The notes under the pieces were generated by a model. It saw only the letters and a program-made list of their open reading frames with translations. It did not search any database and was not told the DNA's origin. Below, piece by piece: positions 321-15,068 of a DNA stretch of 15,068 nucleotides; the first letter of the stretch is position 1, and each line of letters starts with the position of its first letter. Both the position numbers and the translations under genes were made by a program. Origin of the DNA: Oscillospiraceae bacterium (GTDB taxonomy: Bacteria > Bacillota > Clostridia > Oscillospirales > Oscillospiraceae). Location: positions 1 to 15,068 of the forward strand of contig JAFXBH010000222.1 in assembly GCA_017521875.1 (NCBI GenBank), read 5' to 3'.

Positions 321-336
321 GTTTTGGAAAGTGTGA

Positions 337-1989: not shown

Positions 1990-1995
1990 AATATA

Positions 1996-2028: not shown

Positions 2029-2030
2029 CT

Positions 2031-3947
2031 TTATCCTTCTGCCGGTTCTAAGGAGATGATCACCACGGTGGCATCGTCCTGGCCCTCCGTCTCTGCACCG
2101 GTCAGTAAAGCGGTGGCCAATTCCCCGGGCGTGTTTCCCACCCCCGCCACGCAGCAACCCAAGGCCAGATCCTCTCCTACGCCGTCACTGACCATGACCA
2201 ACATCTGTCCCCGTCGCAAGGTCAGATACTCTGTCCGTTCCCGATAATCCGTGACGGACAGTCCCGGAGGCGGCCCGGCGGTGCCGATCTTCTCTGCCCC
2301 CAATGCAGTGATCAGGTAGGACGGCACTGCTCCCCATTTATACAAGGCCACCCGGCCGGTATCCAGACGAATTTCCGCCAAATCCATGGTCACCGCGCCG
2401 GCTCTGTCCCGCAGGGCGCACAGACTGTTGATGCTCCGGAGGGCATGCTCTGCTGGATATCCGGCAGATAACATTCGTTTCAGCATTGTCCCGGCGGTAC
2501 GCCCCTCCTGGACCGCCCCGAGACCTGTGCCCATTCCGTCGCACAGAAGCACATAGTAACGCCCTTCCGTACCCATAAAGCGGAGACACCGGTCACCGTT
2601 GTCCTCCTCCGGCCGGTTGCCAAACACCGCTACCTGGGGGGAATAGACTGCCGTTGGCTCTGTCCGCCGGGAGAGCCGGTCAGACAGTTCCTGCAGAAAT
2701 TCCGACAAAAACTGGTACTGCTGCACCACCGCAGCCCGATATTCCTTCTGCCGTTCCCGATCTGCCCGGATGGAGCGCAGTTGCTCCTGCGAGCGGTGGA
2801 GTTCTGCCAGAAACCGACCGCTTTTCCGGCACACGATAGGCAATTCCTCGGTTTGCAACAGGGGTTTGTGGAGCAGCAGACCCGGTAGCATTCCAATCCG
2901 TTGGGTGTCCTTGCACCCCTTTCGGTTAGGACAGGTATGGCAGGCCCGTTCTGCTGCCCGGGTCACCAACGCATCTTCATCCACCGGTATTTCCGGAATC
3001 TCCAGCAGCAATTCCTGGGTCTGGGACAGAACGCCTGCAGCCAGTTCCAGCCGCACTTGCGCTACCCCCGTCTCTCCCCGGCGGTGGGCCACCTTCCCCG
3101 GCACAGGCAGCAAGCCGCCTGCCATTGCTCCCGCTATCAGCGCCGGCAACGGCAAAACATCCCAGGTTTTCCACAACCACATCACCAATAAGTACACAAC
3201 CCCCGGCGCCAATCTCCCCGCCCAGGAGAGGGGTTTGGGCAGCAAGCGAATGAAGTATGCCAGCACCAGCACCGCCGTCATCGGCACAGGCGTCACCTGG
3301 GCCAAATCCAAAGCAAGTCCCGCCATAGCCGCTGCGGGGAACGCCCCAACCACCGTCAGCGCCCCGGCGGCAAAAAAGCCAAGACTGAACCACCGCACCG
3401 GAGCAATCTGCACCAGCGCCAATACCGCAACGCCCCAGCCAAGCCATTCCAGAATCGGATTGCGACCCTTCCGTAATTGGGAAAACAGCCAGGTCACGGC
3501 CGCTGCCAATCCCACACGAATCAAATACAGGGCAATGGGCGTATCCTCCATATTCAAGGTTTGAAACAGTACCCCCGAGGAAGCCACGATCAGGCCTGCG
3601 ATGGCCGGCAGCAGCAAGGGGGTATCCCGACTGATTCGCTTGTCCCCCAGCAGCAATGCCGCGCACAGACCTGCTGCCAGCCATACCAGTTGCTGCTGCC
3701 CCATATTCCAAAAAATCCGATACCCCAAGGCACTGCCCAAGGCCGCCAACACCGCCGGCCAACTACTGCAGGCGCATACCAACGCCAAGGCCAAAGGCAG
3801 AAGACTCTGTCCCAAACTGGCGGCGCTCAACATAAATCCCGCCAATAAGTACGCCCCGCCCCGGGCCACCGTATGAATCCGGGGGTCCAGCGCCCAGCGC
3901 CGCAGGGTATGGCGACTCTGCCGCACATAGGATTGAATCGTTATCAT
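2031..3947 (-). CDS. spoIIE: Stage II sporulation protein E (SpoIIE) serine phosphatase
   Basis: A 638-residue membrane phosphatase. The N-terminal half (about residues 28-290) is a series of some 8-10 hydrophobic segments. A Cys motif follows (C336-x2-C339 ... C345, CHTCPNRKGC) as in SpoIIE central regions. Then comes a linker with charged helical stretches, and a C-terminal PP2C-type domain with metal-binding aspartates at CDGMG (D470), SDGVG (D588) and QDDA (D624/D625). SpoIIE dephosphorylates the anti-anti-sigma factor SpoIIAA in the forespore, which activates SigF, and takes part in polar septum formation. At 638 residues it is shorter than the Bacillus subtilis protein of about 827. The start ATG at 3945-3947 has a good AAGGAG site 9-10 bases upstream; the open frame further upstream has none and overlaps the divergent promoter. 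It is divergent from the CYTH operon and transcribed alone. Confidence 0.93.
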   Translation of the reverse strand: MITIQSYVRQSRHTLRRWALDPRIHTVARGGAYLLAGFMLSAASLGQSLLPLALALVCACSSWPAVLAALGSALGYRIFWNMGQQQLVWLAAGLCAALLLGDKRISRDTPLLLPAIAGLIVASSGVLFQTLNMEDTPIALYLIRVGLAAAVTWLFSQLRKGRNPILEWLGWGVAVLALVQIAPVRWFSLGFFAAGALTVVGAFPAAAMAGLALDLAQVTPVPMTAVLVLAYFIRLLPKPLSWAGRLAPGVVYLLVMWLWKTWDVLPLPALIAGAMAGGLLPVPGKVAHRRGETGVAQVRLELAAGVLSQTQELLLEIPEIPVDEDALVTRAAERACHTCPNRKGCKDTQRIGMLPGLLLHKPLLQTEELPIVCRKSGRFLAELHRSQEQLRSIRADRERQKEYRAAVVQQYQFLSEFLQELSDRLSRRTEPTAVYSPQVAVFGNRPEEDNGDRCLRFMGTEGRYYVLLCDGMGTGLGAVQEGRTAGTMLKRMLSAGYPAEHALRSINSLCALRDRAGAVTMDLAEIRLDTGRVALYKWGAVPSYLITALGAEKIGTAGPPPGLSVTDYRERTEYLTLRRGQMLVMVSDGVGEDLALGCCVAGVGNTPGELATALLTGAETEGQDDATVVIISLEPAEG

Positions 3948-4035
3948 AGCCACACGCTCCTTGCTTTTGTATAGGAGCATCTTATCACGGGTACAGGTAA
4001 TTTTTCTGTCGGAATCAATAAGCAAAGAAAGATTC

Positions 4036-4064
4036 TTGCGTCCTTCTCCCAAAGGATGTATAAT
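4036..4064 (+). promoter_or_regulatory. SigA-type promoter of the CYTH-exonuclease operon
   Basis: TTGCGT (4036-4041), exactly 17 bp, then a perfect TATAAT (4059-4064). The predicted transcript starts near 4071, leaving about 20 nt before the GTG start at 4090. The GGAGGTGA ribosome binding site is at 4077-4084. Confidence 0.8.
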
Positions 4065-4089
4065 AATAGAAAAACCGGAGGTGATTCTT

Positions 4090-4668
4090 GTGGGAATTGA
4101 GTATGAACGGAAATTTAAATTAAACGACCCCACCTTTTTTGCCCTGGCTGCAGCATTTTGTCGGGACGCCAAAACCATCCAAATGGAGACCACCTATTAT
4201 GACACTCCCTCCGGGGCATTATCTTCCCGCCACTATACCCTCAGACTGCGGCTGGAAAACGGCAAATCCGTCTGCACTTTGAAGACGCCGGCCGGAGAAG
4301 CCCGGAACGAGTGGGAAACAGAAAACACTTCTATAGAAGACGCCATACCCCAATTGATTGCCCAGGGTGCGCCGGCAGAATTGCAGGAACTGGCAAAGGA
4401 GGGTCTGTCTCCCATCTGCGGCGCGAAATTTACCCGCCTTGCCAAAATCATTCCCATCACCGAAGGGGAACTGGAAATGGCGCTGGACTATGGCAAACTC
4501 TTCGCCGGTGACCGGGAAGTGCCTTTGTGCGAGTTGGAACTGGAACTGAAATCCGGTAACAAAAAAAGTTTTGACCTGTTCGTGTGGAGCGTTGCCGGGG
4601 AGTACCTGTTGGAAGAAGAGACAGACAGCAAATTCTGTCGGGCGTTCCGGTTATATAAAGGAGAATAA
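4090..4668 (+). CDS. CYTH-domain triphosphatase (triphosphate tunnel enzyme)
   Basis: A 192-residue protein starting with GTG, chosen because GGAGGTGA lies 5 bases upstream and the diagnostic CYTH motif ExExK (E4-Y-E6-R-K8) then sits at the very N-terminus, as usual. Further conserved parts are visible in order: TTYYDT, the basic LRLRLENGK strand, CTLKTP, NEWE, FTRLAKI, LEMALDYG, ELELELKSG, and a late SKFCRAF. Together these form the charged tunnel that binds triphosphate and divalent metal. Bacterial single-domain members hydrolyse inorganic triphosphate or organic triphosphates, and a minority are class IV adenylate cyclases. The substrate cannot be read from sequence. Its stop codon is separated from the next start by a single base, so the two are translated as a unit. 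Confidence 0.85.
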   Translation: MGIEYERKFKLNDPTFFALAAAFCRDAKTIQMETTYYDTPSGALSSRHYTLRLRLENGKSVCTLKTPAGEARNEWETENTSIEDAIPQLIAQGAPAELQELAKEGLSPICGAKFTRLAKIIPITEGELEMALDYGKLFAGDREVPLCELELELKSGNKKSFDLFVWSVAGEYLLEEETDSKFCRAFRLYKGE

Positions 4669-4669
4669 T

Positions 4670-5353
4670 ATGCTGGACGCTCTATTTGCAAAATATGACC
4701 GGCTGGTACTGTTTGACACCGAGACCACCGGCCTGCAATTTCATCGGGATGAAATTATTGAGTTTGCCGCAGTGGTGGTGGAAAAGCGGAACGGCGCGGT
4801 GACTGTCATACAGGAGTATGACGAACTGATCACCTTAAGTCCCGGGGGATTCGTGCCGCCGCTGATTCAGCAACTCACCGGCATCTCCAACGAAGATATC
4901 CGCAGCCGGGGCATTCCCAAAACCCGGCTCTGCTGCGACATTGCCCGTATGATCGCCGGCAACACCCTGCTGCTGGCCTACAACGCCCATTTTGACTTAA
5001 GTTTCCTGTTTTACCTGCTGCTGCGGGACGGGGATCCCACCATTTTGAAGGGGAAAGACAAACTGGATCTGCTGACGGTGTACAAAGACCGCCATTCCTA
5101 CCCCCACAAACTGTGCAACGCCATTGATGTGTACGGTTTGTCCGGCAAGGTGGTCAACTCCCACCGGGCGGTGGACGATGTGCTGGCCACGGTGGAAGTG
5201 ATGAAAGCCATGGAGACAGAAAAGGCAGACTTGGAGCGTTATGTAAATCTGTTCGGCTACAACGCCAAGTACGGTCTGGATGGCAAGCCCATCGGCTCTG
5301 TGACATATAAACCCCAGCACTACGACCCCATTGCACCACTGTATATGCTATAA
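4670..5353 (+). CDS. DnaQ-like DEDDh 3'-5' exonuclease
   Basis: A 227-residue single-domain exonuclease of the DnaQ/epsilon family. Motif I is FDTETTGL (D16, E18). Motif II is in NAHFDLSFL (D109). Motif III is HRAVDD (H165 and D170). All four DEDDh acidic residues and the catalytic His are therefore present. It removes nucleotides from DNA or RNA 3' ends by a two-metal mechanism. Without polymerase or helicase domains it could be a stand-alone epsilon-like proofreader or a nuclease for small RNA or DNA ends. The start at 4670 follows an AAAGGAG site located inside the end of the CYTH gene, so the two genes are translationally coupled. A perfect terminator follows the stop codon. Confidence 0.88.
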   Translation: MLDALFAKYDRLVLFDTETTGLQFHRDEIIEFAAVVVEKRNGAVTVIQEYDELITLSPGGFVPPLIQQLTGISNEDIRSRGIPKTRLCCDIARMIAGNTLLLAYNAHFDLSFLFYLLLRDGDPTILKGKDKLDLLTVYKDRHSYPHKLCNAIDVYGLSGKVVNSHRAVDDVLATVEVMKAMETEKADLERYVNLFGYNAKYGLDGKPIGSVTYKPQHYDPIAPLYML

Positions 5354-5354
5354 A

Positions 5355-5394
5355 AACACCCCATCTCCCGAAGAGATGGGGTGTTCTGTTTTTT
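5355..5394. terminator. Terminator between exonuclease and DUF2207 genes
   Basis: A perfect 13-bp stem (AACACCCCATCTC, 5355-5367, with 5373-5385), loop CCGAA, then CTG and a T-rich run (5389-5394). A-rich bases at 5352-5356 allow function on the minus strand too. It separates convergent genes ending at 5353 and 5396. Confidence 0.9.
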
Positions 5395-5395
5395 A

Positions 5396-7090
5396 TTACG
5401 GCAGGAAACTTTTCACCAGCGCCAGCAGGCGATTCACGCGACTGTTGGGAGAGCGGGTGTTCATTCCTTTCAGAACCCGCTGCATCAGACCACGCCATTG
5501 CTCCGCCCGCATAGGACTGGCGTTGGCCATCGTGATATAGGGACAAGGACCGATCGGCAGTTTTCCAAACTGTCGGGCAAACTTCCGGTCAACCCCTAAA
5601 GCAATGGCATAGGGCAACATCTGGTGGAAATAATCCGGATTGCTTTCACAAATGGTACGCAGTTGCTCCCGGGAGACAGTTTTCAAATACCGCCGGAAGC
5701 CAAGGGTCTGTCCCATAGCCTGTCTGCCTGCCGGGGTACGGCGGCCGCCCAATGCCAGCAGAAAACCGGCAAACAGTTGGCTCAGCGCCAGGTTCATGCC
5801 TATGGAGAACACACCGCTAAGCAAACCCAGCAGCAGCCAAGCCCCGATCAGCGTCAGCGCCATATACAGTTTCTTCCGGTCGGCTGCCAGCAGGTCACCT
5901 GCCCAGGCTTGGATATACCAACTGCTGATCAGCGCCAAGGCCCCCAGCACAATCATCCAGAACCAGCCGTAACCCATACCGATGGCTATCGAAACTCCGT
6001 AGAACATACCTACAATGGCAAACATCCCCCGGAATACCCTTAAGTTACCGGACTTGGGATGGATCATGGAAGACATATTGGGCACAGATTTTGCCACTGC
6101 GCAATAGATTTCCCCATACCTGGGTGAACCAGCCTCCACGAATTCCCGGCGGCCAAACAGTTGCCGGAAACATTTCTGTTCAAAGGCGCTGCGCTCGTTG
6201 CCCATATCCATTCGACGGTACAGACGGACTTTCCCCTGTTCCCAGCGGATCTGCAGGTAGCCCAAACCGGCCCAGGAAAATACCATCATATTCAGGTCGC
6301 CCCCCTTCAGGTGGAGGACGCTGCCCAACTCACCGGCTGTAAAACCTTCCGGGGCATTGGGTTTTCGGAACGGCCAGGTGGGAATGTTCCGGAGGAACAG
6401 CGCCCAGTAGGCCAGCGCCAGCAGGAAGAACAGGGTGGTCAGGATATTCACCGTCTTAAAATCAGGAAGTACGATTCGGGTTTGGGGGAACACCTCCTCC
6501 GACACCAGCAGCGTCATCATCAGGGTCTCGTGGTCTTTCAGTTCCACCTGAGAGACGCCGGTAATAGTAGCGCCGTTGGTGGTGCAGTACAGGTCTTTTT
6601 CGATGTTGGCCTGGTGATACCCGCTGGAGAAAGCCGGTTTGGCAGTCACCTGACCGGGCAGGGTCACAGAAAACTCCATCGCCTGCACCGGGTATGCAAA
6701 ACCGGACAGTAACGGCAGTTGCAGTTCCAGCAGACCTGCCTCATTGGTGACCACCATATTGGGCAGAGAGTAGGTAAAATACAGGGTAATATCCCCCACC
6801 GCCTTACCTACCACGCCGGACAGATTCACCATTCGCAGGCCGTTTTCCATCCGGCTGCCGGCATGGGAGCCGTTGACCGTTACATTGCTGGATTTCCCCG
6901 GCAGAGGGAATCGGAGATCCTCTACCGCCTGATCCAGATGAATGGTCACGCTTAACGTCACCTGACTGCTACCATCGCTGGCAACGGTGGCATAGGCACT
7001 GATATCTTTGGCATAAGTGGCGGCATTGACGCTCACCGCCATAGAGAATAATACACCTAGAATTGTTATGAAAACAAGGACTTTTCTCAC
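5396..7090 (-). CDS. DUF2207-family membrane protein
   Basis: A protein of 564 residues with a GTG start; AAGGAGGTGG lies about 7 bases upstream. Residues 1-23 form a signal peptide ending VNA. An extracytoplasmic beta-rich domain covers about residues 24-215. A transmembrane segment follows near 217-238, then a soluble part with a winged-helix-like stretch (FTAGELGSVLHLKGGDLN). Two hydrophobic pairs lie at about 350-395 and 405-447. The soluble C-terminus contains the GRQAMGQTLGFRRYL and NPDYFHQMLPYAIALGV motifs that I recognise as DUF2207. The biochemical role of the family is not established; a cell-envelope function is the usual inference. It has its own promoter in the gap after the pseudouridine synthase gene, so it need not depend on the hisS transcript. 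Confidence 0.85.
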   Translation of the reverse strand: MRKVLVFITILGVLFSMAVSVNAATYAKDISAYATVASDGSSQVTLSVTIHLDQAVEDLRFPLPGKSSNVTVNGSHAGSRMENGLRMVNLSGVVGKAVGDITLYFTYSLPNMVVTNEAGLLELQLPLLSGFAYPVQAMEFSVTLPGQVTAKPAFSSGYHQANIEKDLYCTTNGATITGVSQVELKDHETLMMTLLVSEEVFPQTRIVLPDFKTVNILTTLFFLLALAYWALFLRNIPTWPFRKPNAPEGFTAGELGSVLHLKGGDLNMMVFSWAGLGYLQIRWEQGKVRLYRRMDMGNERSAFEQKCFRQLFGRREFVEAGSPRYGEIYCAVAKSVPNMSSMIHPKSGNLRVFRGMFAIVGMFYGVSIAIGMGYGWFWMIVLGALALISSWYIQAWAGDLLAADRKKLYMALTLIGAWLLLGLLSGVFSIGMNLALSQLFAGFLLALGGRRTPAGRQAMGQTLGFRRYLKTVSREQLRTICESNPDYFHQMLPYAIALGVDRKFARQFGKLPIGPCPYITMANASPMRAEQWRGLMQRVLKGMNTRSPNSRVNRLLALVKSFLP

Positions 7091-7124
7091 ACCGCCACCT
7101 CCTTAAAATCTTATTTTTCGCCCT

Positions 7125-7153
7125 ATTTTACCACAAAAACCAAGGAAAAGCAA
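7125..7153 (-). promoter_or_regulatory. SigA-type promoter of the DUF2207 gene
   Basis: On the minus strand TTGCTT (7148-7153), a 17-bp spacer and TAAAAT (7125-7130) fit the housekeeping consensus. Transcription would start near 7118, about 28 nt before the GTG at 7090. No hairpin terminator for the upstream gene was found in this 72-bp gap, so readthrough may add to expression. Confidence 0.7.
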
Positions 7154-7162
7154 GGCGCAAAG

Positions 7163-8014
7163 TTACACATTCATCAAAGAATCAATCTCCATTTTCGCCC
7201 CGGTGATGGGATGGGTAAACCGCAACTGTTTGGCGCAAAGCATCTGGGTGGAAAGGCCCAACTGCGCAGAAAGTTCCTTTGATTCTGCGCTGCCGTACTG
7301 GGGGTCACCCAAAATGGGGAAACCCCTGTAGGCGCAATGGACCCGCAGTTGGTGGGTGCGTCCTGTGATGGGCCGCAGCGCCAATTTGCTCACATTTTTT
7401 TGCCGCTCCAGCACCGCAAATTCCGTCACAGACGGTTTTCCCTCAGGAGATACCTGCCGCAGCAGGCTGGGCAGAGGCAACCGGGCGATGGGGGCGTCGA
7501 TGACCCCTGAATCCTCCTCCGGGCCGCCATAGACCAGAGCATGGTAGGTCTTTTGGCAATCTCCCTGCATCAGCAGGCTGTGGATATGGGAATTCTTTGC
7601 CAGCAGCACCACTCCAAAGGTATCCCGATCCAGCCGGGTCAGAGGGTGAAAGGCGCTGTTTTGGCCCGTTTGCTGATAATATCCCAGCACATAATTGGCC
7701 AGCGTGCCGGTAAACCGGGAACGGGAGGGATGGATCAACATTCCCGCCGGCTTATCCACCGCCAGCAGGTGGTCATCTTCGTAGAGCACCGTTAAATCCC
7801 CTGTTTCCGCCGGGTAATCCGGGGTAGGTTCGTCCAGCGGCACAGTAATGACATCCCCCACCTGCACCGGATAGTCGGTATGCACCGCCACCCCGTTGAC
7901 ATAGAGCCGATCCTGCCACTTCAGCCGGTTCATCAGTCCCGCCGACATTTTCAGTTCTTCCCGCAAAAAGGAGGACAGCCGCCCGGAACGGGCGGCAATG
8001 TGTCGTAACTCCAT
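7163..8014 (-). CDS. RluA/RluD-family 23S rRNA-type pseudouridine synthase
   Basis: A 283-residue protein. An N-terminal S4-like RNA-binding segment (about residues 8-62, with LYVNGVAVHTDYPVQVGD) precedes the catalytic domain. The domain begins YEDDHLLAVDKPAGMLIHPS, has the catalytic motif RLDRDTFG with Asp129, and continues with KTYHALVYG and GRTHQLRVHCAYRGFPILGD, all standard for the RluA family. It would isomerise specific uridines in rRNA, or possibly tRNA, to pseudouridine. The exact target (RluC-, RluD- or RluA-like) cannot be assigned by eye. The ATG is one base after the hisS stop, with only a weak GGA-type ribosome binding site, which suggests translational coupling to hisS. Confidence 0.9.
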   Translation of the reverse strand: MELRHIAARSGRLSSFLREELKMSAGLMNRLKWQDRLYVNGVAVHTDYPVQVGDVITVPLDEPTPDYPAETGDLTVLYEDDHLLAVDKPAGMLIHPSRSRFTGTLANYVLGYYQQTGQNSAFHPLTRLDRDTFGVVLLAKNSHIHSLLMQGDCQKTYHALVYGGPEEDSGVIDAPIARLPLPSLLRQVSPEGKPSVTEFAVLERQKNVSKLALRPITGRTHQLRVHCAYRGFPILGDPQYGSAESKELSAQLGLSTQMLCAKQLRFTHPITGAKMEIDSLMNV

Positions 8015-8015
8015 A

Positions 8016-9371
8016 TTATTTTTCCAAAATCAAGGGGCCGTCGCTATTCTTCAAGCCGTTCAGGATATGTTCCGCAGCCTGCGCCGGGGTACACTTGACC
8101 TGCTCACCGCTTACCATATTCTTTACGGAGCAAACGCCCTCGGCAATCTCGTCCTCGCCCAGCAGCACCACATAGGGAACACCCAATTTGTCGGCGTAAC
8201 TCATCTTCTGCTTGAATTTCTTCTGCTCACTGTACAGTTGCGTCCGCACCCCTGCAGAGCGCAGCGCCTCTGCCAGAGCCACACTGTGGCGCAGTTCCGG
8301 AGTCATGGGCAGCACCAGGGCGTCGCAGGGCGCGCCGGACAGATTGTCATTCAACAGACCCTGCTCGTCCAGCACATAGAACAGTCGGGTCAGACCGATG
8401 GAGATGCCCACGCCGGGCAGGGGTTTATCGGTATAGAACTCTGCCAGATTGTCATACCGGCCACCGGAGCAGACAGAGCCGATCTCCGGGTGATCCAGCA
8501 AAGTGGTCTCGTATACTGTACCGGTGTAATAGTCCAAGCCACGGGCGATGGTCAGATCCACCGCAAAATTCTCCTCAGGAACACCAAAAGCAGACAGATT
8601 CCGGGTAACTGCCTTCAGTTCTTCCAGGCCCAGGTCGAACACTTCGTTCCGTCCGGCATAGGTTTCCAAAGCGGTCAACACCTGGTCATTGCTGCCGGTG
8701 ATGGCGATAAAGCGGAGAATTTCTTCGCCTTGCTCTGCGGAAAGGCCACAGTCTTCCACCAGGATCTTCAGCACTTTTTCCGGGCCGATCTTATCCAGTT
8801 TGTCCACGGTGCGCATAATGTCACCGCTCTTTTCGCTCAAGCCCTGCATAGCATAGAAGCCGTTAAGGATTTTCCGGTTATTCACCCGGATCTGGAAACG
8901 GGTCAGGCCAAAGCCACGGAACACCCGGTAGATAATGGCAGGAATTTCCGCCTCGTTGGCAATGTCCAGTTTTCCGTCGCCGATGATGTCGATATCCGCC
9001 TGATAAAATTCACGGAATCTGCCCCGCTGGGCTCTCTCTCCCCGGTACACCTTACCGATCTGATACCGGCGGAAGGGGAAGGACAGGTCATTATAGTGCA
9101 GTGCCACATACTTGGCCAGCGGTACGGTCAGGTCAAACCGCAGCGCCAGATCGCTGTCGCCTTTCTGGAAGCGGTAGATCTGCTTTTCCGTCTCACCGCC
9201 GCCCTTTGCCAGCAGAATCTTGGCATCCTCGATCACCGGGGTGTCCAAAGCCGCAAAGCCGTAAAGGCTGTAGGTATCCCGCAGAATACGCATCATTTTT
9301 TCCAATTTGGCCTGCTTGGCAGGCAGCAGTTCCATAAAACCGGACAATGTCCGGGGTGTAATTCTATCCAT
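8016..9371 (-). CDS. hisS: Histidyl-tRNA synthetase
   Basis: A 451-residue class II aminoacyl-tRNA synthetase that attaches histidine to tRNA(His). Motif 2 is seen as FRRYQIGKVYRGERAQRGRFREFYQ, split across the ATP-binding loop. The histidine-specific signatures LDYYTGTVYE and CSGGRYDNL follow, then motif 3 around PGVGISIGLTRL. A C-terminal anticodon-binding domain of about 95 residues begins near DALVLPM. The start MDRITPRTL at 9369-9371 is preceded by GAAAGGAAGAG and fits the family N-terminus; the open frame further upstream crosses a terminator and the mgsA gene. A terminator hairpin lies between mgsA and this gene, with no room for a promoter after it (see findings). The rluA-type gene follows at one base. 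Confidence 0.96.
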   Translation of the reverse strand: MDRITPRTLSGFMELLPAKQAKLEKMMRILRDTYSLYGFAALDTPVIEDAKILLAKGGGETEKQIYRFQKGDSDLALRFDLTVPLAKYVALHYNDLSFPFRRYQIGKVYRGERAQRGRFREFYQADIDIIGDGKLDIANEAEIPAIIYRVFRGFGLTRFQIRVNNRKILNGFYAMQGLSEKSGDIMRTVDKLDKIGPEKVLKILVEDCGLSAEQGEEILRFIAITGSNDQVLTALETYAGRNEVFDLGLEELKAVTRNLSAFGVPEENFAVDLTIARGLDYYTGTVYETTLLDHPEIGSVCSGGRYDNLAEFYTDKPLPGVGISIGLTRLFYVLDEQGLLNDNLSGAPCDALVLPMTPELRHSVALAEALRSAGVRTQLYSEQKKFKQKMSYADKLGVPYVVLLGEDEIAEGVCSVKNMVSGEQVKCTPAQAAEHILNGLKNSDGPLILEK

Positions 9372-9386
9372 TGGTCTCTTCCTTTC

Positions 9387-9416
9387 AAAAAAACCGTCCA
9401 GCCCTAGGCCGGACGG
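9387..9416 (-). terminator. Terminator or attenuator between mgsA and hisS
   Basis: On the minus strand CCGTCCGGCC pairs with GGCTGGACGG (10 bp, one G-U) around a 3-base loop, followed by seven U (complement of 9387-9393). It begins 11 bases after the mgsA stop and ends just before the hisS ribosome binding site. It therefore either ends the minD-mgsA transcript or attenuates hisS. Confidence 0.8.
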
Positions 9417-9426
9417 CTGGTTGTAA

Positions 9427-9840
9427 TCAATATTTGGACTTGCTGTGGTACAGTTCCCGCCAATCCAGGTCGCCCCGCTGCAGACCCATAATGAACATTT
9501 CCGCGCTGCCCAAATTGGAGGCAAAGGGGATATTGTTCCGGTCGCAATGGCGAATGGTCTCCACCATCTGGCTTTCGTCCCAGGGGTCTATAGTGTTGGG
9601 ATCAGAGAACAGAATCACCAAATCGATCTCGTTGTAGGCGATCCGGGCATTGATCTGCTGATGGCCGCCCTGCTTGTGGGACAGCAGCAATGTGACAGGC
9701 AGACCGGTATTGTCTGCGATCAACCGGCCGGTGGTGGCGGTGGCAAACAACTGGTGCTTAGACAGCACGCTTTTATAGGCTGTGCAGAACTGGACCATCA
9801 GTTCTTTCTTTTTATCGTGAGCCAGGAATGCAATATTCAT
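9427..9840 (-). CDS. mgsA: Methylglyoxal synthase-like protein with altered active site
   Basis: At 137 residues this has the normal length for methylglyoxal synthase, the enzyme that turns dihydroxyacetone phosphate into methylglyoxal and phosphate. Family features are present: LAHDKKK (H8, D9, K12), the TTGRLI phosphate loop, GGxQQI, DLVILFSDP (D80) and NIPFASN. By spacing against my recollection of the Escherichia coli enzyme, three important residues differ. The general base Asp71 is His60, the active-site His98 is Trp87, and Asp101 is Ser90. The fold is surely retained but activity is doubtful. It starts at ATG 9838-9840 with AAAGGAG upstream and follows minD by 16 bases. It could be an unusual enzyme or a ligand sensor of the MGS-like fold. 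Confidence 0.82.
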   Translation of the reverse strand: MNIAFLAHDKKKELMVQFCTAYKSVLSKHQLFATATTGRLIADNTGLPVTLLLSHKQGGHQQINARIAYNEIDLVILFSDPNTIDPWDESQMVETIRHCDRNNIPFASNLGSAEMFIMGLQRGDLDWRELYHSKSKY

Positions 9841-9856
9841 ATTTTTTGCTCCTTTA

Positions 9857-10591
9857 TCATAACTTCACAGGAACGGAATGTCCCTGAATCCGTTTGGCGA
9901 TCCGGCGGCAGGCTGCAGTTGCGCCTTTTTTGGTGTATCCCAGCAACGGCTGGCGGGATACGGCTGCCATGATCACATTTTCATCTTCCGGTACCACGCC
10001 AAGCAGCGGCAATCCGGACTGATCCATCATATCGTCTACGGTCACGCCCATAGCGGTCATCATTTTGGGATTCACGCGATTGATGATCATACGGGCATTG
10101 GTTTTTCCCATCTCTTCCAGCACATCGGCAGCCCGGGAGGCATCCCGCAACGATGCCGGGTCTGCACCGGCCACCAGAATCAACCGGTCGGCAAACTGCG
10201 CCGCCAGCCGGAAACCGGCATCGATCCCGGCAGGAGCGTCCAGCAGCACATAAGAAAACCGGCTGCGAGCCACTTCCAGCATTTGAGAAAAAGCAACCAA
10301 ATCCACATTTTCCACCGGGCAGTTCAGCGGCGCGGTGAGGAAAGAAATGGTGGGGTACACCGGATGGCGGGTGGCAGATTCCAACCCATACTGTCCGGAG
10401 CATACATCCTGAAAAGAGAGGGCGCCGATCTGACTGATACCCAAGGCAATGTCTAAGTTTCGCAAGCCCACATCGCAGTCAATGCACAGGACTTTTTCAC
10501 CCTGCAGCGCCAAGGCTTCCGCAATGCCGGCGCACAAAGAAGTCTTACCCGTTCCGCCCTTGCCGGACAGAACTGCGATCAATTCTCCCAA
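9857..10591 (-). CDS. minD: MinD-like ATPase (septum-site determination), TTG start
   Basis: A 244-residue ParA/MinD-type ATPase. The deviant Walker A motif is SGKGGTGKTS, with K11 and K16 when counted from the TTG at 10589-10591; those are the same numbers as in E. coli MinD. CDVGLRNLDIALG (switch I) and LLDAPAGID (Walker B/switch II) follow. TTG is chosen over the in-frame ATG at 10624 because AAAGGAGG sits 8-9 bases before it. In addition, the ATG overlaps the -10 box of this gene's promoter. MinD places the division septum by recruiting MinC to the membrane. Here no minC or minE is adjacent. The C-terminus (RRIAKRIQG, then a short tail) offers only a weak candidate for the usual amphipathic membrane helix. 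It heads the transcript with mgsA. Confidence 0.87.
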   Translation of the reverse strand: MGELIAVLSGKGGTGKTSLCAGIAEALALQGEKVLCIDCDVGLRNLDIALGISQIGALSFQDVCSGQYGLESATRHPVYPTISFLTAPLNCPVENVDLVAFSQMLEVARSRFSYVLLDAPAGIDAGFRLAAQFADRLILVAGADPASLRDASRAADVLEEMGKTNARMIINRVNPKMMTAMGVTVDDMMDQSGLPLLGVVPEDENVIMAAVSRQPLLGYTKKGATAACRRIAKRIQGHSVPVKL

Positions 10592-10622
10592 GGTGTGGCC
10601 CTCCTTTCCCTTATATAGAGCC

Positions 10623-10651
10623 ATTATAAATCAATATTGCACAAAAAGCAA
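10623..10651 (-). promoter_or_regulatory. SigA-type promoter of minD-mgsA
   Basis: On the minus strand TTGCTT (10646-10651), 17 bp, then a perfect TATAAT (10623-10628). The predicted start is near 10616, giving a leader of about 25 nt to the TTG start at 10591. The -35 hexamer is identical to that of the DUF2207 promoter. Confidence 0.8.
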
Positions 10652-10725
10652 GGATTTTTCCCGGTCAAAACAGCGCAAATGTATTGATTTTTCATAAATT
10701 TTAGGGGTTCAGTACAAATTGGGGA

Positions 10726-10754
10726 TTTACATTTTTCTTCCTGTGTAGTATGAT
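10726..10754 (+). promoter_or_regulatory. SigA-type promoter of the folT riboswitch transcript
   Basis: TTTACA (10726-10731), 17-bp spacer, TATGAT (10749-10754). The predicted start, around 10760, coincides with the first bases of the riboswitch P1 stem. That agreement supports both calls. Confidence 0.78.
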
Positions 10755-10758
10755 AGCC

Positions 10759-10859
10759 GGGAACAGAGTAGGAGACCTCGCGTGAAGTGCTGTCAAAATG
10801 GGGAGTTGAGTGACAGACGAAGGGCATTGCCCGCGATGAGGCTTCCGCATCCGCTGCCC
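10759..10859 (+). promoter_or_regulatory. Tetrahydrofolate (THF) riboswitch aptamer
   Basis: The stretch matches the folate/THF riboswitch in conserved sequence and order: GAGTAGG, CGCGTGAAGTG, an ATGGGG segment, TGACAGACGAAG, and GCATCCGCTGCCC at the end. Stems seen: P1 GGG-AA-CAG (10759-10766) with CTGCCC (10854-10859); CCTCGCG (10776-10782) with CGCG..GAGG (10832-10841); CTGTCA (10790-10795) with TGACAG (10811-10816); and GGGC-ATT-GCCC (10822-10832). The class binds reduced folates and represses folate transport or synthesis genes, fitting the folT gene downstream. A terminator about 100 nt further on is the likely expression platform. Confidence 0.9.
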
Positions 10860-10862
10860 ATA

Positions 10863-10877
10863 TAGGAATTCTTCCTA
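10863..10877 (+). other. Short hairpin after the riboswitch
   Basis: TAGGAA and TTCCTA (10863-10868 and 10872-10877) can form a 6-bp hairpin with loop TTC in the leader RNA between the aptamer and the terminator. Flanking A/T bases may extend it. It may be a folding spacer or pause site; no function is known. Confidence 0.4.
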
Positions 10878-10957
10878 ATATGCAAGCAACGATACTCGGT
10901 CGGGCGAATCAGTCGGCCAGTTTTTGCGCTGTCTTTCCCGATACGGTACCTGTCACT

Positions 10958-10986
10958 CCCTTGTGCTTTTGGCGCAGGGGTTTTTT
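10958..10986 (+). terminator. Intrinsic terminator of the folT leader (riboswitch platform)
   Basis: CCCTTGTGC (10958-10966) pairs with GCGCAGGGG (10972-10980) in a 9-bp stem with two G-U pairs, followed by six T. It lies between the THF aptamer and the folT ribosome binding site. This is the expected place for a folate-dependent transcription terminator. Confidence 0.8.
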
Positions 10987-11052
10987 GTTTGGGTATCCCG
11001 TGGAACGGCGGCAGCCGATTCGTTTTGCCTACATATTAAGGAGGTTATTTTT

Positions 11053-12123
11053 ATGTCCACAATGATGCGCAATCAGACCCTATACCCCCATCCCTTCTCC
11101 AAGGCCTACTGGAAAGATGCCGCTTCTGAACTGAAAAGCACCCGTATGCTGGTGATCACCGCATTGCTCATCGCCTTGCGGGTAGCGCTGAAGCCTCTGG
11201 CCATTCCTCTGGGTAACCCTCAGTTGAACATTCAGACGGCTATGCTGGCAACCGCATTGGGCGCTATGATCTTCGGACCTGTGGTGGCCATTCCCGCCGC
11301 TATTATTTCTGATACCATTGGATTTATGATCTTCCCCAATGGTGATTACTTTCTGCCCTTCGTGCTGACAGAGATCGCCAGTACATTGATCTATTCCCTG
11401 TGTCTATACCGGTCTAAGGTATCTGCCACCCGGGTGATGCTGGCCCGTTTCCTGATCTGCTTCCTGGTAAATATGGTGCTGCAGACCCTGATTATTGCCT
11501 GGCAGTACACCTATATGGGCAACCCCGAAGGCGCTAAGAATCAGATCTTAGGTATCTTTACCATTTCCCGTCTGTTTAAGAATCTGTTCTTCTTCCCCAT
11601 CGAAACCGTGGTGCTGACCCTGTTTTTGAAGGTACTGACACCGGTGACCTACCGGGCGAAACTCACCTTTGACAAAAACGCCGACCTGCGGTTTACCGGC
11701 AAGCAAATTGCCACCCTGGTGCTGCTTGTGGTGGTAGGTCTGGCCAGCGCTGCCGGCTATCTGACCTATTATTACAACACCAACTCTGTGACCAAGGAAT
11801 ACTCCGCCGAACAGGTCATCGAGCGGAACAAGGCTATGCACGAGATCATTACCGAAAAGGACGCCGCCGTGTCCGAAGACGACACCGTGGCGGTAATTGA
11901 AAGTGCCATCAAGCCCTTCCTGGGTAAGGAGACCACCTACACCGTGGCGCTGTATCAGGCCGTGGAGGGCGCAGAGATCACTGACAATATGTGGAGTTAC
12001 AAAAAGACTCCCGCCAGCAAGGACAAAAACCTGCAGCGGATCGCTACTGTAACCATCGTAGCCGAAAACAAAACGGATGCCGTGCTGTCGTTTGATCTCA
12101 AGGCTGCCGAACCCAAGAAATAA
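11053..12123 (+). CDS. folT: ECF transporter S component for folate (FolT), C-terminally extended
   Basis: A 356-residue protein. Residues about 28-205 form a six-helix S component (STRMLVITALLIALRV, GAMIFGPVVAIPAAIISDTIGF and PNGDYFLPF resemble FolT). S components bind the vitamin in the membrane and share an energising module (EcfA/A'/T) encoded elsewhere. The folate assignment rests on the THF riboswitch upstream as well as on sequence. FolT proteins are usually about 170-200 residues. Here a further transmembrane helix (about 218-240) and some 116 mostly polar residues follow, predicted to lie on the far side of the membrane. ATG 11053 is chosen for its AAGGAGG site 8 bases upstream. The terminator and riboswitch predict repression when reduced folates are plentiful. 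Confidence 0.87.
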   Translation: MSTMMRNQTLYPHPFSKAYWKDAASELKSTRMLVITALLIALRVALKPLAIPLGNPQLNIQTAMLATALGAMIFGPVVAIPAAIISDTIGFMIFPNGDYFLPFVLTEIASTLIYSLCLYRSKVSATRVMLARFLICFLVNMVLQTLIIAWQYTYMGNPEGAKNQILGIFTISRLFKNLFFFPIETVVLTLFLKVLTPVTYRAKLTFDKNADLRFTGKQIATLVLLVVVGLASAAGYLTYYYNTNSVTKEYSAEQVIERNKAMHEIITEKDAAVSEDDTVAVIESAIKPFLGKETTYTVALYQAVEGAEITDNMWSYKKTPASKDKNLQRIATVTIVAENKTDAVLSFDLKAAEPKK

Positions 12124-12125
12124 GC

Positions 12126-12155
12126 ATAAGCGGGGATTCTTTCCCCGCTTATTTC
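12126..12155 (+). terminator. Terminator after folT
   Basis: ATAAGCGGGGA (12126-12136) pairs with TCCCCGCTTAT (12142-12152) in an 11-bp stem with loop TTCTT. The following T-run is short (TTTC), so efficiency may be moderate. Confidence 0.75.
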
Positions 12156-12160
12156 TGTAT

Positions 12161-12189
12161 TTGACAAGGTCTTCTTCCCCGATTATAAT
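12161..12189 (+). promoter_or_regulatory. Perfect-consensus SigA promoter of the His-rich/CooT operon
   Basis: TTGACA (12161-12166), exactly 17 bp, then TATAAT (12184-12189): both hexamers and the spacing match the consensus completely. The predicted transcript begins near 12196, about 20 nt before the ATG at 12217. I see no obvious inverted repeat over the promoter that would mark a metal-responsive operator. Confidence 0.85.
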
Positions 12190-12216
12190 AAAGAAAAAAC
12201 AGTTAAGGAGAACTTT

Positions 12217-12651
12217 ATGCATATTCATCACGATCATATTGCCGGTGGCGAGCACACCCATTCTCACGAGCACGCCCACACCCATGAGCATACCCACGAC
12301 GGCGTCGCCCACAGCCACGAGCATTGCCATTCCCACGACCACGGTCATGTGCATCCCCACGATCACGACCATCTCCACGGCCACGATCACGATCATCACC
12401 ACGACCACGACTGCGGTGGCGGTTGCGCCGGCTGCGCAGGAAAATGTGAGCATTCCCCCATGGAGGAACTGATGGCTCTGATGCAGTATATGGTCAATCA
12501 CAACGCCGCCCACGCCAAGGAACTGGCTGATCTGGCTAACCAACTGGAGAAAGCCGGCAGTCACGCCGCATTTGAGCAGGTGATGGCCGCCGTGTCTGAC
12601 TTTGAAAAGGGCAATATGCGCCTGTCTGCCGTGCTGGCAAGTCTGAAATAA
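12217..12651 (+). CDS. Histidine-rich, cysteine-containing metal-binding protein
   Basis: A 144-residue protein without signal peptide, hence probably cytoplasmic. Residues 2-64 contain 30 histidines, mostly as alternating H-x-H with Asp, Glu, Ser or Thr between. Residues 66-77 hold four cysteines as C-x3-C-x2-C-x3-C in a Gly/Ala setting. Residues 82-144 are a helical domain (MEELMALMQYMVNH, then KELADLANQLEKAG) that I do not recognise by name. The composition points to storage or delivery of nickel, zinc or a similar ion. The next gene encodes a CooT-family nickel protein, which favours nickel; CooJ, the partner of CooT in Rhodospirillum rubrum, is also His-rich. AAGGAG lies 6 bases before the ATG. 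A non-specific zinc or nickel reservoir such as Hpn-like proteins is the alternative. Confidence 0.85.
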   Translation: MHIHHDHIAGGEHTHSHEHAHTHEHTHDGVAHSHEHCHSHDHGHVHPHDHDHLHGHDHDHHHDHDCGGGCAGCAGKCEHSPMEELMALMQYMVNHNAAHAKELADLANQLEKAGSHAAFEQVMAAVSDFEKGNMRLSAVLASLK

Positions 12652-12663
12652 GAGGTAACAACT

Positions 12664-12858
12664 ATGTGTCTTTCCACCGTTTATAAGAACACCCGCACCG
12701 AAGAAAATGTGGTGCTGAAAAATGTGATGCGGATTGAGTGCAAAGACGGCTGCGTCATCTGCACCGACCTGATGGAGCGTTCCGTGGCCATTGAAGGCAC
12801 TTTAGAGAGCGCCAACCTGGTAGACGGCTATGTGGTCGTCAAAGAATCCGTTGCTTAA
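12664..12858 (+). CDS. cooT: CooT-family nickel-binding protein
   Basis: A 64-residue protein beginning MCLSTVY, with Cys2 as the family's key residue; in Rhodospirillum rubrum CooT this exposed cysteine is needed for binding nickel by the dimer. The remainder alternates short beta strands (NVVLKNVMRIECKDG, CVICTDLMERSVAIEG, VDGYVVVKE) as in the small barrel-like CooT fold. CooT takes part in nickel insertion into carbon monoxide dehydrogenase, but the family is widespread in Clostridia outside that operon, and its wider role is open. No CODH gene is in the window. It starts 12 bases after the His-rich gene, with a modest AGAGGTAA site, and shares the strong promoter. Confidence 0.85.
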   Translation: MCLSTVYKNTRTEENVVLKNVMRIECKDGCVICTDLMERSVAIEGTLESANLVDGYVVVKESVA

Positions 12859-12868
12859 ACAAAACAGC

Positions 12869-12904
12869 AAACAGGCACAGCAAATGATACTGCTGTGCCT
12901 GTTT
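12869..12904. terminator. Bidirectional terminator between cooT-like and AEC genes
   Basis: AAACAGGCACAGCA (12869-12882) and TGCTGTGCCTGTTT (12891-12904) form a perfect 14-bp stem with an 8-base loop. T-rich bases follow on the plus strand (TTTCTATTATTTT), and a GTTTGCTGTTTTGTTT run follows on the minus strand. It lies between convergent genes ending at 12858 and 12908. Confidence 0.85.
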
Positions 12905-12907
12905 CTA

Positions 12908-13852
12908 TTATTTTGCAACATATTCAAATATTGTCAGAATCACAGGGATCGTAACACAGCCGCACACATGAGAGATCAGCGCCATGCCGGATGCCACTTT
13001 TGTATCCCTTCCCAGCGCGCCGGGTATAATAACGGTACTCAGTCCCAAAGGCATCGCCAAAGAGCAAACCCCGCAAATCGCAAAGGTTTCCGGGAAAGGA
13101 ACCACCGTCATCATCCCAATAAAAAGCAACGGATATACCAAGAGCCGCAAAAAGGACACAAGATAAATACGCTTGATGCGCAGAATCTCCTTTAAGTCAA
13201 ATTGCGCAATGGCCATACCCGTCAGCAGCATAGCGATGGGTGACATACAACTGCCGGCCGAGGAGACAGTTGCGCTGATAAATTTAGGAACCGGAATGCG
13301 CAGCAAGCCGATCAGCATACCCAAAATCGTACATACAAACATAGGGTTTACGAAGTTTTTCAGCCGCTGTTTCACCGTTTGCTTTTCGGTACTGTCCCCC
13401 ATCAACAAAACCGGAACTCCCCACAGGTAGATCAGTGTCCATAGAGGCAATGTAAAAATCAGGTATTCCAAAAAAACATCCGGAAACAACGCGCTGACCA
13501 CCGCGTTTCCCACAAAGCCAAAGTTGGAAAAGCACAGCCCGTATGTAAAAATATTCCGTTCATACTTATCCTTGCTGCAAAACCGCACGCACCCAAAGGA
13601 CAGAGCAATCGCAACCGCCGCCAATACGAAACTTCCCAAAAGCATTTCCCGGGCAGCAGATATTTTTTGCGGTGTAAAGTTATCTATAAAGGTACCCAAC
13701 ACCAACGCAGGGATAAACACCGTGTTTTCCAATTTGGACAACACCGCCTGTGCGTTGTCCGGAACAAATTTCCACCGGGACAGAATATAGCCGATTACAA
13801 TAAACGAGAACAGAAACGCTGTTTGGTTCAATGTTGCAATAAAAACGCTCAT
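12908..13852 (-). CDS. AEC-family (auxin efflux carrier-like) transporter
   Basis: A 314-residue integral membrane protein with about ten hydrophobic segments split by a charged central loop (MGDSTEKQTVKQRLKNF), the architecture of the AEC/BART superfamily. Recognisable family stretches are FSFIVIGYILSRW at the N-terminus, a CFSNFGFVGNAVVSALF helix, NPMFVCTILGMLIGLL after the loop, and MPLGLSTVIIPGALG near the end. Bacterial members move malate, malonate or other organic anions; the substrate here is unknown. It starts at ATG 13850-13852 with AGGGGGA upstream, overlapping the end of the preceding hydrolase gene, nine bases away, so the two form an operon. Its codons look more AT-rich than those of the hisS-minD region. 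Confidence 0.88.
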   Translation of the reverse strand: MSVFIATLNQTAFLFSFIVIGYILSRWKFVPDNAQAVLSKLENTVFIPALVLGTFIDNFTPQKISAAREMLLGSFVLAAVAIALSFGCVRFCSKDKYERNIFTYGLCFSNFGFVGNAVVSALFPDVFLEYLIFTLPLWTLIYLWGVPVLLMGDSTEKQTVKQRLKNFVNPMFVCTILGMLIGLLRIPVPKFISATVSSAGSCMSPIAMLLTGMAIAQFDLKEILRIKRIYLVSFLRLLVYPLLFIGMMTVVPFPETFAICGVCSLAMPLGLSTVIIPGALGRDTKVASGMALISHVCGCVTIPVILTIFEYVAK

Positions 13853-13861
13853 AGAATCCCC

Positions 13862-14638
13862 CTAAATCAGCGCCGTGCCTTCCCATTCGTCGGCAGGCAT
13901 AACACCCATTATTTTTGCAATGGTAGGCGCAATGTCTAAAATGGTGCCGCCGGAGAATTGCTTGCCAGCCTGGAACTGCTTTCCAAAATAGAACATGGGA
14001 ATCGTCGTATCCTCCGGGATATCCGCGCCGTGGCAGCGATCATGACCGCCATGATCTGCCGTTACCACTATGGTGTATTCTTCACCAAATTCCTCTATAA
14101 CCCGACGAATATTGTCCACTGCCACAGAAATTCTGTGCAAATACGCCTCTGTCATCCAACCATGATCATGGCCGCCCTTCTGGTCTGTCTCCACCATATA
14201 GAGGAACACAAAATCCGGCCTATCCTTTCGGATCCTGGCAATGGCGCTGTCTGCCAGAACTGTGTCACTGCTTTCTTCTGCGTAGGAATGAATGTACCCT
14301 GCATACCGCAGCGATCCCGGCCTTGCCACATCCCGCAAAGGCTCCCATCCATAGTACATCGCGCAGACCTTTCCCCCATTTTTCAGTTGTTCAAACAGGC
14401 CAGGCAAAGGTCTTGCCATCGGCAGATAGGTATTGGTGGTAATGCCGTGGCGCTGGGGCGTTACGCTGTGAAACAACGACATAAAGCACGGCAATGTTAC
14501 CGGCGGCAAAACAGTCTGACCCTCCAATGTATAATAGGAATTGCACATCATCTGGTTTATGTACGGGTTTTTGCAAGATAAAAATCCATCCGGACGCATG
14601 CCGTCCACACTGATGAGAATCACTTTGTTTTCTTTCAT
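13862..14638 (-). CDS. Alkaline-phosphatase-superfamily hydrolase (phosphodiesterase/pyrophosphatase type)
   Basis: A 258-residue protein of the type I phosphodiesterase/nucleotide pyrophosphatase group. Metal-site residues are recognisable: SVDGMRPD (D12) and the nucleophile in PPVTLPC (T48), followed by SVTPQRHGI. Next are ETDQKGGHDHGW (D152 and a following His), TADHGGHD (D195, H196), and a final GTILDIAPTIAKIMGV that closes the fold. Such enzymes cleave phosphodiesters, phosphomonoesters or phosphonates with two zinc ions. No signal peptide is present, so a cytoplasmic substrate is likely. ATG 14636-14638 is used because AAAGGGGGT lies about 8 bases upstream; 18 more residues are open upstream without such a site. 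It is first in an operon with the AEC carrier, which might import its substrate or export its product. Confidence 0.87.
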   Translation of the reverse strand: MKENKVILISVDGMRPDGFLSCKNPYINQMMCNSYYTLEGQTVLPPVTLPCFMSLFHSVTPQRHGITTNTYLPMARPLPGLFEQLKNGGKVCAMYYGWEPLRDVARPGSLRYAGYIHSYAEESSDTVLADSAIARIRKDRPDFVFLYMVETDQKGGHDHGWMTEAYLHRISVAVDNIRRVIEEFGEEYTIVVTADHGGHDRCHGADIPEDTTIPMFYFGKQFQAGKQFSGGTILDIAPTIAKIMGVMPADEWEGTALI

Positions 14639-14702
14639 GAAAATACCCCCTTTATTGGTGCTGACATTGGATTTTCTGCAGCCACTTTTCAATTTTTATA
14701 CC

Positions 14703-14730
14703 ATTATAGCACATTTCCACTCAATTGCAA
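14703..14730 (-). promoter_or_regulatory. SigA-type promoter of the hydrolase-AEC operon
   Basis: On the minus strand TTGCAA (14725-14730), a 16-bp spacer and a perfect TATAAT (14703-14708). The predicted start is near 14696, with a leader of about 58 nt. Confidence 0.7.
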
Positions 14731-14761
14731 CAACACAGACCTTTAATCTCTGATACCAAAG

Positions 14762-14793
14762 AAAACCACCGAGGGATTTCCCTCGGTGGTTTT
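14762..14793. terminator. Terminator after rpoD
   Basis: AAAACCACCGAGGG (14762-14775) and CCCTCGGTGGTTTT (14780-14793) form a perfect 14-bp stem around ATTT. On the minus strand the run TTTTCTTT follows, placing it 3 bases after the rpoD stop codon. The plus strand also has a good T-run. Confidence 0.92.
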
Positions 14794-14796
14794 TTA

Positions 14797-15068
14797 TTAG
14801 CAGTAGAAATCCTTGATCTTCTTGGCGCGGCTGGGGTGGCGGAGTTTGCGGATGGCCTTGTTTTCGATCTGACGAATACGCTCTCTGGTAACGCCGAAGA
14901 TCTGACCCACTTCTTCCAAAGTGTGGGTACGGCCGTCGTACATACCGAACCGCATACGCAGCACATCGGCTTCCCGCTCGGTTAGGGAATCCAAAATTTC
15001 CTTCAGCGCCTCCGCCAGCATGGCGTTGGAAGTGGCATCAGCCGGGCCGGGGGTACGCTCGTCCTCCA
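14797..15068 (-). CDS. rpoD: Housekeeping RNA polymerase sigma factor (SigA/RpoD), C-terminal part
   Basis: Partial gene: about 90 C-terminal residues, open to the window edge. Region 4 is complete: [19 protein letters not shown], then the region 4.2 helix-turn-helix [19 protein letters not shown], then the family end [15 protein letters not shown]. Region 4.2 reads the -35 element of promoters. The TTGACA-like -35 boxes found across this window are what such a factor would recognise. The apparent start at 15021 is internal, since the preceding frame (ending ADATSNA) continues the linker of the family. It is followed at once by a strong terminator, so it ends its transcript. Confidence 0.95.

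Follow-up and report, generated by a model that had tools for sequence, protein, structure and literature searches.

The gene for an extremely His-rich protein is followed by a gene for a CooT-family protein in contig JAFXBH010000222.1 of an Oscillospiraceae bacterium (assembly GCA_017521875.1). Positions 1 to 15,068 of the contig were analysed and are referred to here as the window. The CooT of Rhodospirillum rubrum binds one Ni(II) per dimer, and nickel insertion into carbon monoxide dehydrogenase (CODH) is described as less studied than insertion into urease and hydrogenase (PMC6006190). The locus raises the question of whether the two proteins act together on nickel, and which enzyme they would serve.

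Transcription Unit in the Window

The two genes form a single transcription unit flanked by two terminator-like hairpins. A sigma-70-type promoter (TTGACA-17-TATAAT) is located on the forward strand at positions 12161–12189 and matches the consensus at 12 of 12 positions. It is the sole perfect match within the window, against 0.003 expected from base composition. A ribosome-binding site, AAGGAG, can be read off the sequence at 12205–12210 (+). The gene of the His-rich protein extends from 12217 to 12651 (+) and is followed after a 12 bp gap by the CooT-family gene at 12664–12858 (+). The initial annotation had described this promoter, a 144-residue protein with 30 His in residues 2–64 and a C-x3-C-x2-C-x3-C cluster, the 12-base gap, and a 64-residue CooT-like protein with Cys2, and all of these were borne out.

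The first terminator-like hairpin lies behind the CooT gene at 12869–12904 (+) and is terminator-like on the minus strand too. The second, at 12126–12152, lies directly 3’ of the upstream folT gene, so the pair is probably transcribed separately from it. That gene encodes a folate ECF transporter component (TIGR04518) and is preceded by a THF riboswitch at 10762–10858, and the downstream neighbour is a transporter gene (Pfam Mem_trans) running in the opposite direction. The riboswitch and the folate transporter gene together occupy 10762–12123 (+). The encoded S component is 358 amino acids in all and has a long extra C-terminal part, with the family match covering residues 31–197.

His-Rich DUF8180 Protein

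The His-rich protein is 144 amino acids in length and contains 34 His in total, with Cys at positions 37, 66, 70, 73, and 77. Its N-terminal tail (residues 2–64; 12220–12408, +) holds 30 of the His residues and is followed by the Cys cluster C66-x3-C70-x2-C73-x3-C77 (12412–12447, +). Residues 80–144 (12454–12648, +) are predicted by AlphaFold2 to fold as a helical hairpin, with helices at 2–33 and 37–64 of the domain and a mean pLDDT of 97.9. The reading frame is a real gene, since 4,939 proteins match residues 64–144 at E ≤ 0.01. Neither the Pfam nor the NCBIfam copy used gave a match above cut-off for the protein; the former lacks the PF26551 model, which accounts for the missing Pfam match. 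PF26551.1 is precomputed on a protein-database entry identical to the window protein over the queried region, and UniRef names this family DUF8180. The domain called helical and unnamed in the initial annotation is thus helical, as stated, and does have a name. No paper on DUF8180 was found in the literature covered.

An alignment of 30 proteins, including that of the window, shows that H95, N96, H99, and one Leu never vary. The motif H95-N96-x-x-H99 (12499–12513, +) is therefore invariant, while the length of the His-rich part varies widely. Among 30 proteins read, those with three or more Cys, at varying spacing, come from the window genus, from six close relatives, and from a single distant one (L060). 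In L200–L202 the protein is a 68-residue hairpin with no His tail, which keeps HNxxH and still lies directly 5’ of CooT. The N-terminal position of the His tail, which had been taken as a reversed architecture, was confirmed but is not special to the window, as the tail first and the helices last is the usual order in DUF8180 proteins adjoining CooT.

A second group of DUF8180 proteins, here the HW group, includes those of Thermoanaerobacter kivui, Clostridium sp. AWRP, Tepidanaerobacter, Paraclostridium, and others. The sequence HWxxHNxxH is present in 118 of the best 120 of 490 HW-group proteins. The window group aligns with the HW group at an HHalign probability of 95% (E 3e-8). The window protein reads Y-M-V-N-H-N-A-A-H at this site, keeping the last two His of HWxxHNxxH and having Tyr for the first.

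CooT Protein

The CooT-family protein is 64 amino acids in length, has Cys at position 2, and scores 60.5 bits on Pfam PF10133, whose cut-off is 27. Its sequence alone matched no solved CooT structure; a profile built on it and its relatives, 26 CooT proteins in all, matches the solved structures 5n76, 6y8v, and 6fan with E values of 3e-5 to 6e-5. Met-Cys-Leu is invariant in all 26 of these proteins, which had been picked for a Cys at position 2. The window protein has the Pfam family, length, and Met-Cys2 in common with R. rubrum CooT (PDB 5n76) and the CooT of PDB 6fan. It differs from these in its partner gene and gene order, and no CODH gene lies beside it.

Conservation of the Gene Pair

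The family sample consists of 120 genomes of the window’s family, the window genome included. CooT is present in 39, and 38 of these also have the hairpin, which no other genome of the sample has. Co-occurrence is given below as both/first only/second only/neither, with p-values that ignore shared ancestry; for CooT and the helix it is 38/1/0/81 (p = 1e-30). The adjacency on which the initial annotation had staked its two-gene module is strongly conserved, with the hairpin gene directly 5’ of CooT on the same strand for 37 of the 39 family CooT genes. By coordinates, 36 of them follow a hairpin match, 34 at distances of up to 118 bp and the other two at 278 and 415 bp, and the partner of the 37th (G006) was found with a profile. 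In G088 and G057 the hairpin and CooT genes are on different contigs, and in both genomes the CooT gene is the first of a CODH or acs cluster. G040, G060, G072, and G079 each contain an additional hairpin gene that does not lie near CooT.

In a sample of 348 genomes from the phylum, the hairpin profile was found in 16 and lies directly before CooT in 15 of them, even where the match is weak. CooT is present in 106 or fewer of the 348, so most CooT genomes have no detected helix, and CooT is often alone or has a partner too distant to see. No hairpin was apparent among the called ORFs of L189–L196, the eight best-scoring CooT loci of the phylum. At two of these (L189, 486–1097; L196, 425–1031), a CooT variant (MCEANxY...) lies directly behind a conserved protein of about 140 amino acids (IAVxDGxGGGIG), with no hairpin gene. 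The same two genes are found at L201 (79–740), which carries the hairpin kind too.

A further set of 80 hairpin loci, the best of 130 found with a subset of seven sequences, is for that reason no fair sample. CooT is directly behind the helix in 48 of these loci and not in 31, while one locus ends too soon. Of the 31, 23 are linked to HGD genes (described below), several with a CooT heading another HGD pair nearby.

Genes for CsoR-type repressors with His-rich N-termini adjoin the pair at three loci: L083 (7170–7505, −; called by Pfam PF02583), L087 (9055–9429, −; called by BLAST), and L198 (94–600, +; 38 His, called by eye only). At L149, a single gene directly behind the hairpin gene (8191–8733, +) contains CooT, a His-rich linker, and a CsoR-family repressor domain identified by Pfam. 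Such repressors with His-rich N-termini are possible nickel-responsive regulators.

Association with ACS and CODH

Matches to TIGR01702 below 50 bits, which are hybrid-cluster-like, were not counted as CODH, and matches to TIGR00316 below 28 bits (G051, G102, and G109) were not counted as acetyl-CoA synthase (ACS). Split fragments were counted from 100 bits for CODH and from 85 bits for ACS, the window genome (G000) being among the latter. In the 120 family genomes, CooT occurs with ACS in the pattern 34/5/3/78 (p = 4e-21), that is, in 34 of 39 CooT genomes against 3 of 81 others. The corresponding counts for CODH are 32/7/7/74 (p = 1e-15), or 32 of 39 against 7 of 81. There is no association with [NiFe] hydrogenase (2/37/6/75, p = 1), which was present in 2 of 39 CooT genomes and 6 of 81 others. 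A hydrogenase, proposed initially as one possible client of the pair, is not supported by these counts. CODH/ACS, also proposed, gained support from the co-occurrence and from the acs operon context.

Within 10 kb of CooT in the 39 genomes, ACS is found in 17, CODH in 7, and either in 19, counts that are limited by contig ends. Seven more genomes that were opened (G009, G029, G057, G062, G072, G097, and G100) have acs genes beside CooT. The common operon is hairpin-cooT-(small 75-aa gene)-cooC-acsD-acsC-acsE-acsB-acsV. It extends at least to acsE in at least 13 of the stretches opened, and acsB lies behind acsE wherever the contig reaches. Curated models applied to example copies gave the names AcsD, AcsC, AcsE, AcsV, and ACS. 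The cooC label is given by resemblance and place, as the scanned copies match MinD/ParA/CbiA-type models only and no CooC model. In many genomes acsB is present twice, once next to CODH and once behind the pair. The presence of CooT in Wood-Ljungdahl pathway (WLP) neighbourhoods has been noted in an earlier study (PMC6344411), and another places CooT/CooJ in clade E and F CODH operons (PMC13056359).

The small gene between cooT and cooC encodes a conserved 73–74-aa protein (EIFNxCSGNQMRDVF) in many acs operons, for example at L083 (8932–9156, +) and L087 (10032–10253, +). For the L083 copy, Pfam and NCBIfam gave no match. Two matches contain an in-frame stop codon: the ACS match at G105 contig C59 (3980–5317) has one TAG, and the CODH match at G119 contig C97 (10304–12160) has one TGA. 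Decay, assembly error, and recoding are all possible for both.

Two genomes, G063 (97% complete) and G065 (87% complete), have ACS and the pair with no CODH, G063 showing only a 24-bit hybrid-cluster-like match. This suggests that ACS itself is a likely client. Four genomes (G003, G036, G051, and G080) have the pair with neither CODH nor ACS proper, so ACS and CODH are not the only possible clients. Conversely, ACS is present in three genomes (G008, G038, and G085) and CODH in seven genomes that lack CooT, and the pair is thus not needed for every ACS or CODH.

Window Genome and Close Relatives

The window genome is 1.66 Mb in 319 contigs, is 82% complete, and has one CooT. The check for nickel enzymes that had been suggested for it returned an 89-bit ACS fragment located at the end of a contig (C164), and no CODH or hydrogenase match in the assembly at this completeness. 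The fragment shares 86% protein identity with an acsB of G049, which fits the genus rather than contamination. G049 (99% complete), the sole same-genus genome shown, has CODH and two ACS genes.

No acs genes lie beside the pair in the window or in G049. In the latter, a cooC-acsD-acsC-acsE-acsB operon is headless of the pair, which adjoins an rpoB gene (recognised by eye). Six close relatives were opened (G031, G053, G062, G096, G097, and G100), and the pair heads the acs operon in five; the exception is G096, where the acsB genes are on other contigs. In G088, also a close relative, the hairpin gene heads an acs operon without CooT, separate from the cluster headed by its CooT. Since acs neighbours are kept in five close relatives and absent in the window genus, the pair has, judging from gene order, probably left that operon within the genus.

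The relocated pair has a 12 of 12 promoter in both genus members. The best match in the 200 bp 5’ of the start in G049 lies 27 bp before the ATG, as in the window. The best match is 12 of 12 in one of the six close relatives, 11 of 12 in four, and 10 of 12 in one, and is 8 to 10 of 12 in eight more distant loci.

Relation to Known Nickel Systems

The CooJ motif, as reportedly given in the abstract of Alfano et al. 2019, is H(W/F)x2Hx3H, which equals the HWxxHNxxH of the HW group. The HW group has all three His, and the motif is incomplete in the window protein, where the first is Tyr. R. rubrum CooJ (PDB 6hk5) also differs in having a C-terminal His tail, where the window protein has an N-terminal tail and an added Cys cluster. 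In PDB sequence searches with the helix, 6hk5 was listed in two of seven, over nearly its full length and with E values of 0.59 and 1.5. Neither value is significant, so the sequence comparison by itself does not identify the protein as CooJ. The AlphaFold2 hairpin overlays 6hk5 over 62 of 64 residues at 1.2 Å, at rank 45, and such hairpins are common. With weak sequence matches and a common fold, the protein is not classed as CooJ. It may be a distant relative of CooJ, the homology being suggestive, and by its gene company it would work like CooJ. Of the proposed stand-alone CooJ/CooT analogue, the two-gene module in CooJ/CooT-like company is supported.

A His-rich and CooT pair has already been published for acetogens, and the window pair is a relocated variant of this known kind with an altered motif. 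This hp-nbp pair corresponds to CAETHG_1604/1605 and LABRINI_07945/07950, and its homologues accompany the WLP genes of several acetogens, T. kivui included, according to its authors (PMC10230548). T. kivui TKV_c19790 is in the DUF8180 list, where Clostridium sp. AWRP is named too and the hp of Clostridium autoethanogenum is not. Both pairs have a His-rich protein and CooT side by side. The hp-nbp pair adjoins the C1-fixing cluster, whereas that of the window lies apart from acs genes. The window pair further carries a Cys cluster, and its motif is YMxxHNxxH in place of the HWxxHNxxH of the HW group.

Nwaokorie et al. 2023 deleted hp (His-rich) and nbp (CooT) in C. autoethanogenum (PMC10230548). 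ACS was down 1.5- and 1.8-fold in the two deletions and CooS1 likewise 1.5- and 1.8-fold, while AcsE and AcsD were up 1.5- to 1.6-fold. Among these four C1-fixation proteins of Table 1 of that paper, the nickel enzymes fell and the nickel-free ones rose; AcsA, the CODH of the CODH/ACS complex, is absent from the table of changed proteins. The same study gives a lower growth rate for both deletions in rich medium and an unchanged one in minimal-medium syngas batch, and growth of the CooT-gene mutant like the parent with added nickel (PMC10230548). We infer that the protein changes reflect failed nickel loading, a reading that is ours and not that of the authors.

HypB, SlyD, and Hpn-type proteins also have a His-rich stretch for nickel storage. 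The window protein differs from them in its DUF8180 hairpin and its pairing with CooT, and no GTPase or PPIase domain was found in it by Pfam and NCBIfam.

HGD-Linked Relatives

The 80 hairpin loci described above (the best 80 of 130) include 19 linked to ACS or CODH within 8 kb and 39, from 38 assemblies, linked to HGD genes within 3 kb. Of the remainder, 4 are linked to IscS-IscU and 18 are other. The HGD-linked kit occurs in gut Clostridia, namely Mogibacterium and several Oscillospiraceae. The HGD genes belong to PF06050. Against the double-cubane reductase model, which has a cut-off of 350 bits, the larger-scoring subunit reaches 135–140 bits.

At L231 (148–5751, −), near hairpin and cooT genes, the operon order is a CooC-like ATPase, HGD1, HGD2, an ASKHA activase, and a 245-aa protein. 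This last protein matches the ACS middle domain (PF03598) at 34.8 bits against a cut-off of 24, and its best solved match is ACS (E 1e-4). A similar operon at L133 (1633–7209, −), also near hairpin and cooT genes, contains the CooC-like ATPase, HGD1, HGD2, and a like ACS-middle-domain protein (37.2 bits). Parts of the CooC-HGD order are present at L226 and L227.

None of the 22 HGD-linked genomes searched, for which no completeness was given, has a CODH of at least 100 bits, three having hybrid-cluster-like matches of 29–39 bits. ACS proper is present in one of the 22 (G473), and 13 have a 20–28-bit ACS match like that of the 245-aa protein. Over the 120 family genomes, HGD2 is not significantly associated with CooT (5/34/4/77, p = 0.15). 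In the 77 family genomes without CODH and ACS the counts are 3/1/4/69 (p = 0.002), for a subset that was chosen after seeing the data; HGD2 is thus present in three of the four family CooT genomes that lack both. An HGD link was rejected for the window itself, as neither G000 nor G049 has an HGD2 match. These genomes suggest a nickel- or CooC-dependent enzyme that is not yet described. That DUF8180, CooT, and CooC make up a general nickel-insertion kit, also serving an unrecognised nickel enzyme, is a tentative proposal that we regard as rather doubtful.

In four assemblies (L117, L130, L134, and L161), hairpin-cooT lies directly behind iscS-iscU. Three of these genomes were searched: neither CODH nor ACS exceeds 50 bits in G488 (L130) and G491 (L161), and G490 (L134) has both.

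Proposed Function

The unit is probably a strongly promoted two-protein nickel relay, similar to CooJ/CooT, for the CODH/ACS (Wood-Ljungdahl) enzymes of the organism. The His tail of the DUF8180 protein would collect and loosely buffer nickel, and the helical hairpin, probably as a dimer, would hold it more tightly at the invariant HNxxH. From there nickel would be handed on to Cys2 in the CooT dimer and, together with a CooC-type ATPase, be delivered into the A-cluster of ACS and/or the C-cluster of CODH. The pair would do so from the head of the acs operon in many relatives and, in the window genus, from a place apart under its own promoter.

His-rich tails bind many divalent metals. The pair could accordingly be a general buffer of zinc, cobalt, or nickel with no dedicated client, the acs link reflecting the high metal demand of anaerobes. 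Some relatives are annotated in databases as ‘zinc transporter’ or ‘cobalt transporter’, although a His-rich tail on a hairpin of 65 residues has little resemblance to a transporter, and the growth defect of the C. autoethanogenum mutants is reported for rich medium only (PMC10230548). We consider a general buffer unlikely given the near-perfect pairing with CooT, the tight ACS link, and the persistence of the HNxxH hairpin before CooT in L200–L202, where the His tail is gone.

The HGD link of the hairpin in other Clostridia would allow another client in the window genome, such as a double-cubane or 2-hydroxyacyl-CoA-dehydratase-type (HGD-D) reductase. This is very unlikely here, as the window genome holds an ACS fragment and shares with G049 the lack of an HGD2 match. 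The reading to which we give the least credence is a nickel-sensing or regulatory device, with the pair relaying metal status to, for instance, a CsoR-type repressor. It draws on a CsoR-family gene that several relatives carry in divergent orientation to the pair (His-rich at the N-terminus in one of the copies scanned), on the fusion of CooT to His-rich and CsoR-family parts at L149, and on the altered protein levels of the C1 cluster in the deletions (PMC10230548). Against it, neither window protein has a DNA-binding Pfam match, and no CsoR-like hit lies beside the window or G049 pair.

A nickel relay for CODH/ACS would tie the unexplained phenotype of an industrial acetogen to the nickel loading of ACS and CODH. 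DUF8180 is a widespread small domain, and the context of the pair gives it a testable job. The more surprising lead lies in the HGD-linked relatives, through which a new nickel enzyme might be sought in gut bacteria.
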